The position numbers and the translations under genes were made by a program. Below the pieces are notes generated by a model. The model was given only the letters and a program-made list of their open reading frames with translations. It was not told the origin of the DNA and made no database searches. Of a DNA stretch of 31,604 bases, positions 4,197 through 8,741 are shown in pieces. This DNA is from a virus. How positions within the stretch are numbered: the stretch's first letter is position 1; each line of letters opens with the position of its first letter. Where the stretch lies: positions 1-31,604 of IMG/VR virus record IMGVR_UViG_3300010883_000239, one strand, 5' to 3'.

Positions 4197-5642
4197 TTAT
4201 TCGTGGGTAATTTTCGAGAATCCTGCAACCTTTTTTATATCTATTAAATTATCTACTACATCTCTTACTGAATCAAGATGGCTTACTATCATAAGTAAGT
4301 CGAACTGTGACTTTAAGAACGTAAATAGCATGAATAATGAGTTAAGATTTTCAGAATCAAGATTACCTAACCCTTCATCTATTGCTAAAAAGTTAGGTCT
4401 TGGCAGATTAGATATATTAACTAAGGCAGTCCTAATTGCTAAAGAAGAAATAAATTTTTCCATACCAGATGTTAGTTCCAACGGCCATGTCTTCTCTTCA
4501 CTGTATACAATAAACGTGTTAATATTTTTACCATCTAATTGAAACATTATTTTAAAGTCAACTATTTGAGCTAATATATCGTTAACCTCTTCTTCAATAA
4601 TAGGTACCACTTTAGTGATAAGCTCGTAGGGTACACCATCTCTCTGGATAGCATCTATATAATATTCGTAAGCTTTAAACTTCTGCTCTAATGCTTCAGC
4701 TTTTTTAATGGACTGAGTTATATTATCTCTAGTAGATAAAGCTACTTGAATTGCTCCGTGAAGAGTCATAAACTCATCATCTATTCCAACTTTATTATCA
4801 ACAAGCTCATCATTCTTAACACTTAATTCACTAATCTGTTCGTTAGTTTTATTATTATGAATAATAGCTTTTTTATTTTCATGATATTGTTTCATCTCAA
4901 GTTCTACTTGAGACTGCAGTTGTTGTATTTTATCGCGTTTTTCTTTAGCTCTATAGTAAGCTATCCTACCAACATTTCGCTCACGCTCTATATTAGATAG
5001 TAAATTATTTATTTTAATAATTTTATTGTATTCAACTTCTGAATCTGCATGCGTTAGTAATACTAATTCACAGTCTTTAATTTTCTGTATAACTTCACTA
5101 GCTTTTATTTTATCTTGCTCTAAACTTGATCTAGTATCTTCTTGTATCTTTATAGATGCACTCTCACGCTCCTTACAAAAATTACAGTTAGGGTCAAATG
5201 TATTATCATTAGCTTCAAGCTTTTCTAATTTATATTTTACATCAACTTTAATTCGGTCACGTTCTGCCATTAACTCCTTTACTAAAATACGCTTTTCAGT
5301 AAGGGTATTAAAATTATCAGTTACCGCCTCAGCATCATATTCACTAAGAATAGTATTTGCTTTACGTATTTTTTCTTTATTCTCTATCGCAACAGCTTCG
5401 TCAGAATGTAGCCTAGTAGTTATTTCATCTACTTGAGTAATGTAATCTGTATGCTGTATCTTCATAGAATCTAGATCTTCATTAACTGACTCTATTTTTA
5501 TAATTTTAGATTGCAGAGTTGTAATGCGTTTATTTAATGTAGCTATCTTACCCTCTAATGATAGTGATGATTTCTTTACCTCATGTTTACGCTCACGTTT
5601 AGTTTCTAATTCTGTTTCTAATCTGCTAGTAATTGTGTAAAA
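4197..5642 (-). CDS. gp46: gp46 (Rad50/SbcC-like) C-terminal part, downstream of a frameshift
   Basis: This is the distal part of the SMC-like ATPase subunit of the recombination nuclease. The frame is open from 5642; the first ATG inside it is at 5465, but the coiled coil continues upstream of that, so 5465 is not the true start. Numbering from that ATG, a zinc-hook-like CNFC (Cys94, Cys97) sits within coiled coil. Near the end come an ABC signature (LTSGMEKF, about 331-338), a Walker B with Asp363-Glu364 (FLAIDEG), a D-loop (GNLD) and an H-loop His396. It lacks the Walker A, which is in the preceding frame (5618-7372). A one-base insertion near 5639-5642 would join them. The ATPase half-site motifs are intact, so decay is recent if it is real. 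Confident of family; the broken state needs confirmation. Confidence 0.85.
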   Translation of the reverse strand, partial: FYTITSRLETELETKRERKHEVKKSSLSLEGKIATLNKRITTLQSKIIKIESVNEDLDSMKIQHTDYITQVDEITTRLHSDEAVAIENKEKIRKANTILSEYDAEAVTDNFNTLTEKRILVKELMAERDRIKVDVKYKLEKLEANDNTFDPNCNFCKERESASIKIQEDTRSSLEQDKIKASEVIQKIKDCELVLLTHADSEVEYNKIIKINNLLSNIERERNVGRIAYYRAKEKRDKIQQLQSQVELEMKQYHENKKAIIHNNKTNEQISELSVKNDELVDNKVGIDDEFMTLHGAIQVALSTRDNITQSIKKAEALEQKFKAYEYYIDAIQRDGVPYELITKVVPIIEEEVNDILAQIVDFKIMFQLDGKNINTFIVYSEEKTWPLELTSGMEKFISSLAIRTALVNISNLPRPNFLAIDEGLGNLDSENLNSLFMLFTFLKSQFDLLMIVSHLDSVRDVVDNLIDIKKVAGFSKITHE

Positions 5643-7372
5643 TCATTCTTTTTAAAATCTTTTAGTAACGCAGATACATCTTTTATTTCATCTAAAGCTG
5701 CTCTATATAATTCATCAAATACTTTAATATCTAAAAATTGAGCAAGTAGATCCTTTCTCTCAAATTGAGACATATCAATAAACCCAGTATTATTATTTTG
5801 CACTGATAGAGCAGTTAAAATAAAATCTTCGAAGTGCCCGACATATGAGCTGATAATTTTATTAGTATCGTATCTTGCTTCTCCATTTAATGAAACTTCG
5901 TTACCCTGTTCATCTAGTGTCCAGAAGTTTACCTTAACTGAGTATTTACCTTCTTTCCATCCCTTAAGGCCCTTACTACCATTACGTTCAATAAAAAAGT
6001 CTTGACCATCTATCTTAAAGTGTAATTTGCAATGGAAAGTAGTTTTTTCACTATTCATAACATCTCTAGCTTGAGATGATCTACTGCATTTATCAAACAG
6101 GCAATATGTAATTGCATCTAATAAAGCACTCTTACCTGAAGCATTTGGAGCAAATAACCCATAAGCTCCTTTCATATTTGAAAAATCTACTGAATTACCA
6201 CCACCGTAACTAAACATATTACTAAACTCGAAGTTCATAGGTTTCCAGGTTAGATTTCTAAATACATCTACCTGAGCTATACTGCCGTTTAGATCTTTAT
6301 TTATCTTTTTTATAGTTTTAACAACATCATCCTCTAAAACAAAATTACGTTCGAGGTAATCAACTATTAGTTTATTTTGATAATTTGGATCTCTCACGTC
6401 ACCAATTCCTGCATCATTTGCATTTCTATCACCACTGCGCTGATCTGATAGTCTATCCGTTCTAATAATCGCTACATCTTTTAACTTTGATGTCTTACGA
6501 ATTTCAGTTAAGATCTTTTTTAATTGAGATTCTTCAGTTTTACAAACTTTAATACGTAACCTTGGATATTTAGGCATTGGTATATCATTTTTAATTTTAC
6601 CGTTTTCTATCTCTAAAGTTACATATGCATAATCGTTTTCAATAATCCTATACTCTGGTTTACGTTTAGGAGCATCCCATTTAATATATCCATGATTGGT
6701 GGGATGCTCACCCCAGTTCTGACATACTAGAGAACCTGCGTATGCAATAGTTTTACTTTTGTTAAGGTATTGTTGCTTATGTATATCACCTAACAGCACC
6801 ATGTCGTATCCGGTAAATATATCTGTGGTTACTTCACCAGGTAATTTAAACCCTACATCTGTAGTCGCACTCTCTACTGAACCATGATATAATGCTATTT
6901 TAGTTTTATTTGTGTTTATATTTTTAGATAGTATATATTCTTCAGGATCATTAAAAACTGACATAACATTAAATACACAATCAGCTATTTCATATAAACC
7001 ATTATCCTTTAGGTAATGGAAATTATCTAACCGTAAAGAATCAACTATAGGTGATAGTGCATCCAATCTATTTTTATTATTAAGATTACAATCATGATTA
7101 CCAGCGATAAGTATAGTCGGTGCTATCTTACTTAATTTAGTAAATAGCTCTGAGGTCATCTCTATCAGTTCAGGACTCATTTCAGTTTTAGCGTGAGCAA
7201 TATCACCGGCTAGATAGATTAGAGAATTTTCTGGTAGGTTATCTTTAAGATCTTTGTAGAGCTTTCTAAATACCTGTTTATATTCTTTATGACGTCTTAA
7301 ATTTCGTATATGCACATCTGCTATATGAGCAATACACTTAATATTTTTAAATCCAATATCTACCTTATTCAA
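5618..7372 (-). CDS. gp47-gp46: gp47 nuclease fused in frame to the N-terminus of gp46 (Mre11-Rad50 type)
   Basis: Residues 1 to about 340 are an SbcD/Mre11 metallophosphatase with all five motifs: Asp19/His21 (ADVH), Asp57 (AGD), GNHD 91-94, His163, and GDIHKQQ 195-201 (Asp196, His198). With no stop or restart the same frame continues from about 378 into a Rad50/SbcC head, with a Walker A variant at 407-415 (APNASGKS) and the start of a coiled coil. T4 encodes these subunits as separate genes 47 and 46. The start is TTG at 7372, overlapping the primase stop as TTGA; no in-frame ATG lies before the first metal-binding motif. The frame ends prematurely at 5618, and the rest of gp46 is in the -1 frame below. 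Role: DNA end resection for recombination-dependent replication. Confidence 0.88.
   Translation of the reverse strand: MNKVDIGFKNIKCIAHIADVHIRNLRRHKEYKQVFRKLYKDLKDNLPENSLIYLAGDIAHAKTEMSPELIEMTSELFTKLSKIAPTILIAGNHDCNLNNKNRLDALSPIVDSLRLDNFHYLKDNGLYEIADCVFNVMSVFNDPEEYILSKNINTNKTKIALYHGSVESATTDVGFKLPGEVTTDIFTGYDMVLLGDIHKQQYLNKSKTIAYAGSLVCQNWGEHPTNHGYIKWDAPKRKPEYRIIENDYAYVTLEIENGKIKNDIPMPKYPRLRIKVCKTEESQLKKILTEIRKTSKLKDVAIIRTDRLSDQRSGDRNANDAGIGDVRDPNYQNKLIVDYLERNFVLEDDVVKTIKKINKDLNGSIAQVDVFRNLTWKPMNFEFSNMFSYGGGNSVDFSNMKGAYGLFAPNASGKSALLDAITYCLFDKCSRSSQARDVMNSEKTTFHCKLHFKIDGQDFFIERNGSKGLKGWKEGKYSVKVNFWTLDEQGNEVSLNGEARYDTNKIISSYVGHFEDFILTALSVQNNNTGFIDMSQFERKDLLAQFLDIKVFDELYRAALDEIKDVSALLKDFKKNDFTQLLAD
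5639..5642 (-). other. Frameshift site in the gp47-gp46 fusion
   Basis: The upstream frame reads GAT TTT ACA and stops at TAG (5618-5620). The continuing coiled coil is in the -1 frame, which is open only downstream of a TGA at 5643-5645. The shift must therefore fall between 5642 and 5619. The run of four T is the simplest place for one lost base: a fifth T restores a 1058-aa protein. No canonical X XXY YYZ slippery heptamer is present. Confidence 0.8.
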
Positions 7373-7686
7373 ACCATCTTCTCTTTAATTTTCATTTCCA
7401 TTAATTTATATGATGTTAAATCTTCACTACCCTGTATTAATGTATTAACTTTAGAAAACCCTAAATCACTAGGATCATCTTCATCTAAATTAATTAGTGT
7501 AACTGATACACCATTGTTTATAAAATATTCACAACTCTGCAATGCTTTAGAACGAGCATCTCTATCTAAAGCTATATTAATATTTTTAACATTATTCTCT
7601 ACTACTGCTTTTTTAAGTTTTTCTAACACTATTTTACCAAATAAAGGTATAGCGTTACGTTTTACAGCTAATGCATCAAATACACC
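7369..7686 (-). CDS. gp61: DNA primase, TOPRIM C-terminal part after a frameshift
   Basis: This is the distal third of the primase. The frame opens at 7686 with GVFDALAVKR, the continuation of a TOPRIM VVEG motif. It then shows NINIALDRDA, the TOPRIM Asp-x-Asp metal-binding strand, and ends at 7369. A start at the internal ATG (7629) would omit the beginning of the domain, so independent translation as a functional protein is unlikely. It overlaps the TTG start of gp47-gp46 (TTGA), suggesting translational coupling. Read together with 7668-8288 plus one base, it gives a 306-aa enzyme, of the same order as T4 gp61. Confidence 0.82.
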   Translation of the reverse strand, partial: GVFDALAVKRNAIPLFGKIVLEKLKKAVVENNVKNINIALDRDARSKALQSCEYFINNGVSVTLINLDEDDPSDLGFSKVNTLIQGSEDLTSYKLMEMKIKEKMV

Positions 7687-8324: not shown

Positions 8325-8741
8325 TTATTTTAATATTTTTTCGTTATACCAAGCTTTAGGAATTGACTTATCTGCCCAAATTATATAATTTTTATTACAA
8401 AAATCTGCATATGTAGTTTTACTACCTTTACGTATTTTACCCTTGGAGTTTTGAAAAACTAGCCTGATATCTAATTTAGGGTGTTGTATTTTTATGAGTA
8501 AATGTTTTTTTCGATCCTCTAAAACCCAACGACCTTTAGTTTCAACTAATATACCATTTGGTAAAGTAAAATCTATTGTATATGTATGATTGGTTTCTGG
8601 TTTTATATATGGAATTACAGTTGTTTCGTATTCGAATTTAACTTTAGCTTCAGTCAGCTCTTTAGAGACGGTGTGTTCAAATCCACTTCTATAACCATGC
8701 TTGATAGCATTTGATCTTGCTTTTGATATTTTTCTTGCCAT
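8325..8741 (-). CDS. T7-type endonuclease I (Holliday junction resolvase)
   Basis: A 138-aa protein matching the phage T7 endonuclease I (gp3) family over nearly its whole length. Recognisable blocks are FEYET, NHTYTIDF, LPNGILVETKGRW, DRKKHLLI, QHPKLDIRLVF, YADFC and IWADK-IP. By alignment to the T7 active-site set, the catalytic residues are Glu22, Asp57, Glu67 and Lys69, all present. It would resolve branched DNA before packaging and during recombination. T4 and many relatives use endonuclease VII (gp49) instead, so this is a non-homologous replacement or an addition. It sits between the last tail structural gene and the primase. The leader carries a TATTTATTATAG element, and the upstream gene ends in a hairpin. 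Confidence 0.93.
   Translation of the reverse strand: MARKISKARSNAIKHGYRSGFEHTVSKELTEAKVKFEYETTVIPYIKPETNHTYTIDFTLPNGILVETKGRWVLEDRKKHLLIKIQHPKLDIRLVFQNSKGKIRKGSKTTYADFCNKNYIIWADKSIPKAWYNEKILK

Follow-up and report, generated by a model that had tools for sequence, protein, structure and literature searches.

A full-length Mre11-Rad50 fusion gene in a viral contig and its relatives among phages

Introduction

Phage T4, like most organisms, encodes its Mre11-like and Rad50-like parts (gp47 and gp46 in T4) as separate genes, with 46.1 and 46.2 lying between 47 and 46. By contrast, a viral contig of 31,604 nucleotides (IMG/VR record IMGVR_UViG_3300010883_000239, positions 1 to 31,604; hereafter the window) carries motifs of both parts in a single open reading frame. 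The initial annotation, made from the letters alone, read this as a fusion of gp47 and gp46 and treated the arrangement as surprising. This locus raises the question of whether the single chain is real, and of what joining a nuclease to its ATPase might achieve.

The arrangement itself is not new. Mimivirus R555 was described in 2011 as an Mre11-Rad50 fusion, together with a list of twelve others (Yoshida, Claverie and Ogata, 2011; PMC3175470), and the published fusions come from Mimivirus, Bacillus phage 0305phi8-36, plasmids, bacteria and eukaryotes. Marine metagenomes and those of viral fractions were reported to be rich in R555 homologues, whose scaffolds also carry phage primases and T7 gp3-type endonucleases, and many of the marine homologues were suggested to be phage genes (PMC3175470). 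On the Microcystis phage Mel-JY01, discussed below, and on later phage fusions, the literature searched contained nothing beyond this paper. The fusion arrangement has thus been known since 2011, and the gene in the window is a new full-length case of it.

Nuclease and ATPase domains in one frame

The features of the locus, all on the minus strand, are as follows. Residue numbers are those of the intact relative L006, from whose AlphaFold2 (AF2) model the domain boundaries are taken.

4197..7372 (-): Mre11-Rad50 fusion gene, from open reading frames; TTG start at 7372-7370; frame-broken at about 5621 in the window, with an intact frame of 1055-1058 aa in seven close relatives
6653..7339 (-): Mre11-like nuclease domain, about residues 12-240; motifs DxH, GDxxH, GNHD, H and GDIH, from Pfam Metallophos and conservation
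6458..6652 (-): capping domain, about residues 241-305, from the AF2 model; an SbcD nuclease and capping domain match covers residues 12-305
6284..6388 (-): helix-loop-helix (HLH), from the AF2 model; putative binding role, by analogy with MR structures
6251..6283 (-): linker between the halves, residues 364-374, 11 aa, from the AF2 model
6128..6160 (-): Walker A, GLFAPNASGKS, residues 405-415, from sequence; G405, F407, N410 and GKS invariant in the alignment
5618..5622 (-): frame break seen only in the window, within the first coiled-coil arm; one-base gap, from DNA alignment with ten relatives
5175..5186 (-): zinc hook, CNFC
4458..4469 (-): ABC signature, SGME
4374..4391 (-): Walker B, FLAIDE; F995, D999 and E1000 invariant
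4278..4280 (-): H-loop histidine, residue 1032 in L006
7369..8321 (-): neighbouring DnaG-type primase, phrog_47 on both pieces; frame-broken in the window near 7668-7686, a single ORF in relatives
8325..8741 (-): neighbouring T7 gp3-type endonuclease I (Phage_endo_I, PF05367, E 4e-55)

The first piece of the gene is a 584-aa ORF (7372-5618) which matches Pfam Metallophos at residues 14-199 (E 2e-10) and AAA_23 at residues 384-574 (E 2e-11), in the same frame and with no stop between them. A second piece, in another frame running down to 4197, contains the remainder of the Rad50 half: the CNFC hook, signature, Walker B and H-loop. PHROG 77 (SbcC-like) spans the two pieces in order, with profile positions 301-484 in the first and 504-954 in the second. 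The five Mre11 motifs and the Rad50 Walker A were therefore correctly placed in one frame by the initial annotation, as was the order from nuclease to H-loop. Chance is excluded by the domain E-values taken together with conservation in more than 100 loci, and the gene is confirmed as a real Mre11-Rad50 fusion encoding a single chain.

Two frame breaks private to the window

According to a DNA alignment with its ten closest relatives, a single base is missing from the window at about 5621, a deletion found in none of the ten (0/10). Restoring one base had been predicted to yield a chain of 1058 aa, and the intact genes of L005, L006 and L008 have exactly this length. The break falls over 600 bases beyond the junction, within the first arm of the coiled coil; as the window's junction is itself undamaged, this break has no bearing on the fusion. 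A second break affects the neighbouring primase, which is one ORF (about 307-333 aa) in L005, L006, L008, L009, L014, L022 and L028. That neighbouring conserved genes each carry a frame break not shared by relatives suggests a sequence error in the window contig, and the break in the fusion gene is most likely such an error, or else a lesion private to this contig. The window gene was left unmended in all analyses, and intact relatives were used in its place.

The idea that the break is functional, either as a programmed frameshift or by dividing the gene into one protein with nuclease and Walker A and another protein, deserves very little credence. Both pieces retain coding character as deposited; however, no relative has the break, a split within the first coiled-coil arm would part Walker A from Walker B, and the primase is broken in the window alone. 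The bases at the break form no standard slippery heptamer, and programmed frameshifting was rejected.

Relatives sharing the fusion

A scan of IMG/VR found 38 relatives, and wherever a contig end does not truncate the gene, both domains are read in a single open frame. The frame is 1058 aa in L005, L006, L008, L010 and L013, 1055-1056 aa in L009 and L014, and 1045-1053 aa in more distant relatives. These seven close relatives (85-90% identical) are uninterrupted across both the junction and the position of the window's break. A profile scan of IMG/VR yielded at least 586 relatives; among the 80 best, which were retained, one frame is present in 80/80, with lengths of 1044-1081 aa where complete (three reach a contig end), although these 80 were ranked by full-length score and are therefore no measure of how often the gene is split in remoter relatives.

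The fusion is also found in a cultured phage. Microcystis phage Mel-JY01, the sole match in a DNA-level search of phages, has a complete genome of 190 kb encoding a fused relative of 1066 aa (WWT39521.1), annotated only as 'AAA domain containing protein' and 48% identical over the 584-aa part of the window gene. Across its whole genome, AAA_23 and Metallophos each match exactly once, and both matches fall within the fused ORF, so Mel-JY01 has no version other than the fused one to rely on. A 735-kb uncultured phage genome (L004; LR756501.1) encodes a fused ORF of 1201 aa that is more distant. At record positions 280331-282130 and 672010-672690, this genome has, in addition to its fused gene, another frame, of 566 aa, that matches AAA_23 over nearly its full length and is possibly a second, gp46-like protein.

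The junction lies in one frame in all viral relatives checked except LR756508, which carries an insert. The fusion gene of this 484-kb uncultured phage (LR756508.1; L003, about 6660-7610) is split inside the nuclease domain, between GDIHKRQ and GSLIQQN. The insert, of about 1 kb, resembles an intron with a homing endonuclease; its 305-aa ORF has zinc-finger-like repeats, and the C terminus of this ORF is endonuclease-like.

Occurrence of the same junction in other phages had been proposed as the test of the fusion, and it is shared there in an uninterrupted frame, with no stop and restart in any relative. The chance that separate gp47-like and gp46-like genes merely look fused through an indel or chimera in the contig is accordingly negligible. 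The contig does have frame breaks, and the genes are separate in T4, T5-like and Herelleviridae phages, but Mel-JY01 and independent contigs from many samples all read through the junction without leaving the frame, and the junction length is fixed.

Outside viral records, a search of a plasmid collection with the nuclease half (E 1e-3) found no relative. Among genome contigs, the better matches (L123-L126) are on metagenome-assembled genome (MAG) contigs of 4 to 20 kb which may be phage contigs binned with bacteria; cellular spread is therefore not claimed. A 3.9-kb contig of a deltaproteobacterial MAG (L128; JAJFLM010000191.1) has a fused frame, 28% identical and 828 aa long, that is open at the contig end, and this contig may be viral as well.

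Conserved residues and the junction

An alignment of 69 fusions, extending down to about 41% identity to L006, contains the metal-binding nuclease motifs of Mre11-Rad50 enzymes together with their Walker A, signature, Walker B, H-loop and CxxC zinc hook. Invariant in all 69 are D19, D57, H60, N92, H93, H163, D196, H198, the Walker A GKS, SGME, the Walker B DE, H1032 and the hook cysteines C730 and C733; D196 occupies a position where T4 has His. H21, in the first metal motif DxH, is His in 53/69 and Gln in 16/69 (L055, L083 and L111 among them), with the other metal ligands retained. Because of this substitution, nuclease chemistry may vary in some homologues.

The distance from Q332 to W376, which spans the junction, is 45 residues in 54/69 fusions and 46 in the other 15. 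No Shine-Dalgarno sequence with a start codon recurs at the junction in relatives, so nothing points to Rad50 being made on its own, and internal initiation at the junction was rejected. At the other end of the gene, the closest relatives have a TTG start following an AAGGAG site and overlapping the end of the primase gene (L006 5976-6003; window near 7372), an arrangement suggesting translational coupling.

Predicted structure

AlphaFold2 was run on L006 as a monomer, with an alignment of IMG/VR-derived sequences only. The model has a mean pLDDT of 81.5 and a pTM of 0.47, leaving the relative placement of domains uncertain. From the N terminus it comprises the nuclease, the capping domain, a poorly ordered stretch at about 306-328, an HLH (helices 329-343 and 348-363), the linker, and then the first Rad50 strand (375-384). 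The best structural matches of the Rad50 half include 7yzo, 6s85 and 3av0 (E. coli SbcC and archaeal Rad50; Z 30-31), while the nuclease half matches 7dog and 4lty (SbcD/Mre11; Z 23-25).

In BFVD, the top structural matches are giant-virus proteins of about 970-1390 aa, most of them annotated as DNA repair proteins. The best is a Tupanvirus DNA repair protein, 26% identical over 1321 columns. Long phage proteins follow, for example from Tenacibaculum phages.

Neighbourhood and proposed function

In the relatives checked, a primase lies directly or closely upstream of the fusion; in Mel-JY01 it is a 327-aa primase-like CDS just upstream of the fused gene. A RecA-family protein is encoded by Mel-JY01, LR756508 and two long IMG/VR contigs; a RecA match was absent from three of the seven records searched, all three being fragments.

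The gene very probably encodes a phage single-polypeptide Mre11-Rad50 (SbcD-SbcC) enzyme of R555-like architecture, acting in end processing during recombination or replication. By analogy with the MR family, fused chains would dimerise through their nuclease domains and ATP-engaged Rad50 heads, with the HLH docking on the coiled-coil root as in the two-subunit enzyme. Whether DNA ends can reach the metal-dependent nuclease would be controlled by ATP binding and hydrolysis. Resection or cutting of these ends would leave 3' tails for RecA/UvsX-type recombination, recombination-dependent replication and repair. Such end processing might take place alongside the phage primase and, in the window clade, a T7-type junction endonuclease.

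A role as an anti-phage or inter-phage defence effector (e.g. Lamassu-related) instead of a replication or recombination enzyme appears highly improbable, and was rejected. The Rad50 half is matched by PADLOC LmuB (E 1e-22), and an NCBIfam anti-phage protein model gives a weak nuclease match (E 1e-7; cut-off 790 bits). However, LmuB is itself an SMC/Rad50-like ATPase and its match is expected, the neighbours are a primase and a junction endonuclease, and the full MR motif set is conserved across a broad range of phages.

What the fusion adds to an end-processing enzyme is a separate question. Fixed 1:1 stoichiometry and a change in how the DNA end is presented had both been put forward. In the 2011 work, the domain order and a linker of 9-12 residues were argued to fit a 28 Å gap in the T. 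maritima MR complex (PMC3175470), and the 11 residues modelled here agree with that expectation. Together with the retained HLH, this predicted linker suggests that the fusion mimics the ordinary complex. The fusion probably secures co-production and 1:1 assembly rather than a new activity; altered presentation of DNA ends is a possible effect. It is unlikely that the tether keeps the nuclease at the ATPase through the whole cycle and so alters which ends are cut, unlike in two-subunit MR. The near-invariant junction length would fit such a constraint, but the linker suits the known complex without strain (PMC3175470; AF2 model) and the HLH is retained.

The full-length contigs and the cultured 190-kb Microcystis phage provide evidence from phages for what was inferred from short marine scaffolds (PMC3175470), namely that aquatic phages commonly carry Mre11-Rad50 fusions of R555 architecture. 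Structural work should also benefit from a single-chain MR enzyme of cultured-phage origin, since its 1:1 stoichiometry is built in.

Comparison with known systems

The window family has the Mre11-like and Rad50-like parts of T4 gp47 and gp46 and the same expected role of making recombinogenic ends. A FastTree phylogeny of nuclease plus ATPase, which is indicative only, places the IMG/VR fusions with Mel-JY01 and the fusion of the 735-kb phage next to them. Across a split with support of 0.99 are the separate versions, from T4, cyanophage ACG-2014f, T5-like Stubb, Vibrio D254, two Herelleviridae and E. coli SbcCD. T4 and cyanophage gp47/46 form their own group away from the fused clade. The description as a single Mre11-Rad50 chain thus stands, but the family falls outside T4 gp46/gp47 proper, both as a single ORF and by its place in the tree, and the fusion is not simply T4 gp47 joined to T4 gp46.

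E. coli SbcCD and archaeal Mre11-Rad50 share the fold of both halves and the CxxC hook with the window family. Their subunits are separate, however, and the coiled coil of SbcC (a 1048-aa subunit) is much longer.

In architecture, the closest likeness is to the R555-type fusions. As defined in 2011, these have an N-terminal Mre11/SbcD and a C-terminal Rad50/SbcC part in one ORF, with the capping and HLH region retained and a short linker. The window family has all of these, the window copy itself being frame-broken downstream of the junction. Domain order, HLH and short linker are common to the window family and to the published fusions of Mimivirus, giant viruses and GOS scaffolds, and the GOS scaffolds also share its neighbourhood of primase and T7 gp3-type endonuclease. 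The fusion of Bacillus phage 0305phi8-36, in contrast, was reported without the capping/HLH region (PMC3175470), which the window family has. By its published description, R555 has His at the third position of motif II and Asp where P. furiosus has His206 (PMC3175470). H60 (GDxxH) and D196 match these substitutions in the window family, but they are not diagnostic of R555 because a T5-like D12 sequence has both.

Tentatively, this abundant phage fusion clade might be the source pool, or a lateral-transfer sister, of the R555-type fusions of giant viruses, a single event being shared by viruses of bacteria and of protists, with a near-invariant junction that ties nuclease and ATPase cycle together more closely than two-subunit enzymes do; this combined proposal is doubtful at present. 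R555 is longer, at 1351 aa versus the 1058-aa chain here, and unlike R555 of Mimivirus, the window relative in Mel-JY01 has a demonstrated bacterial host.
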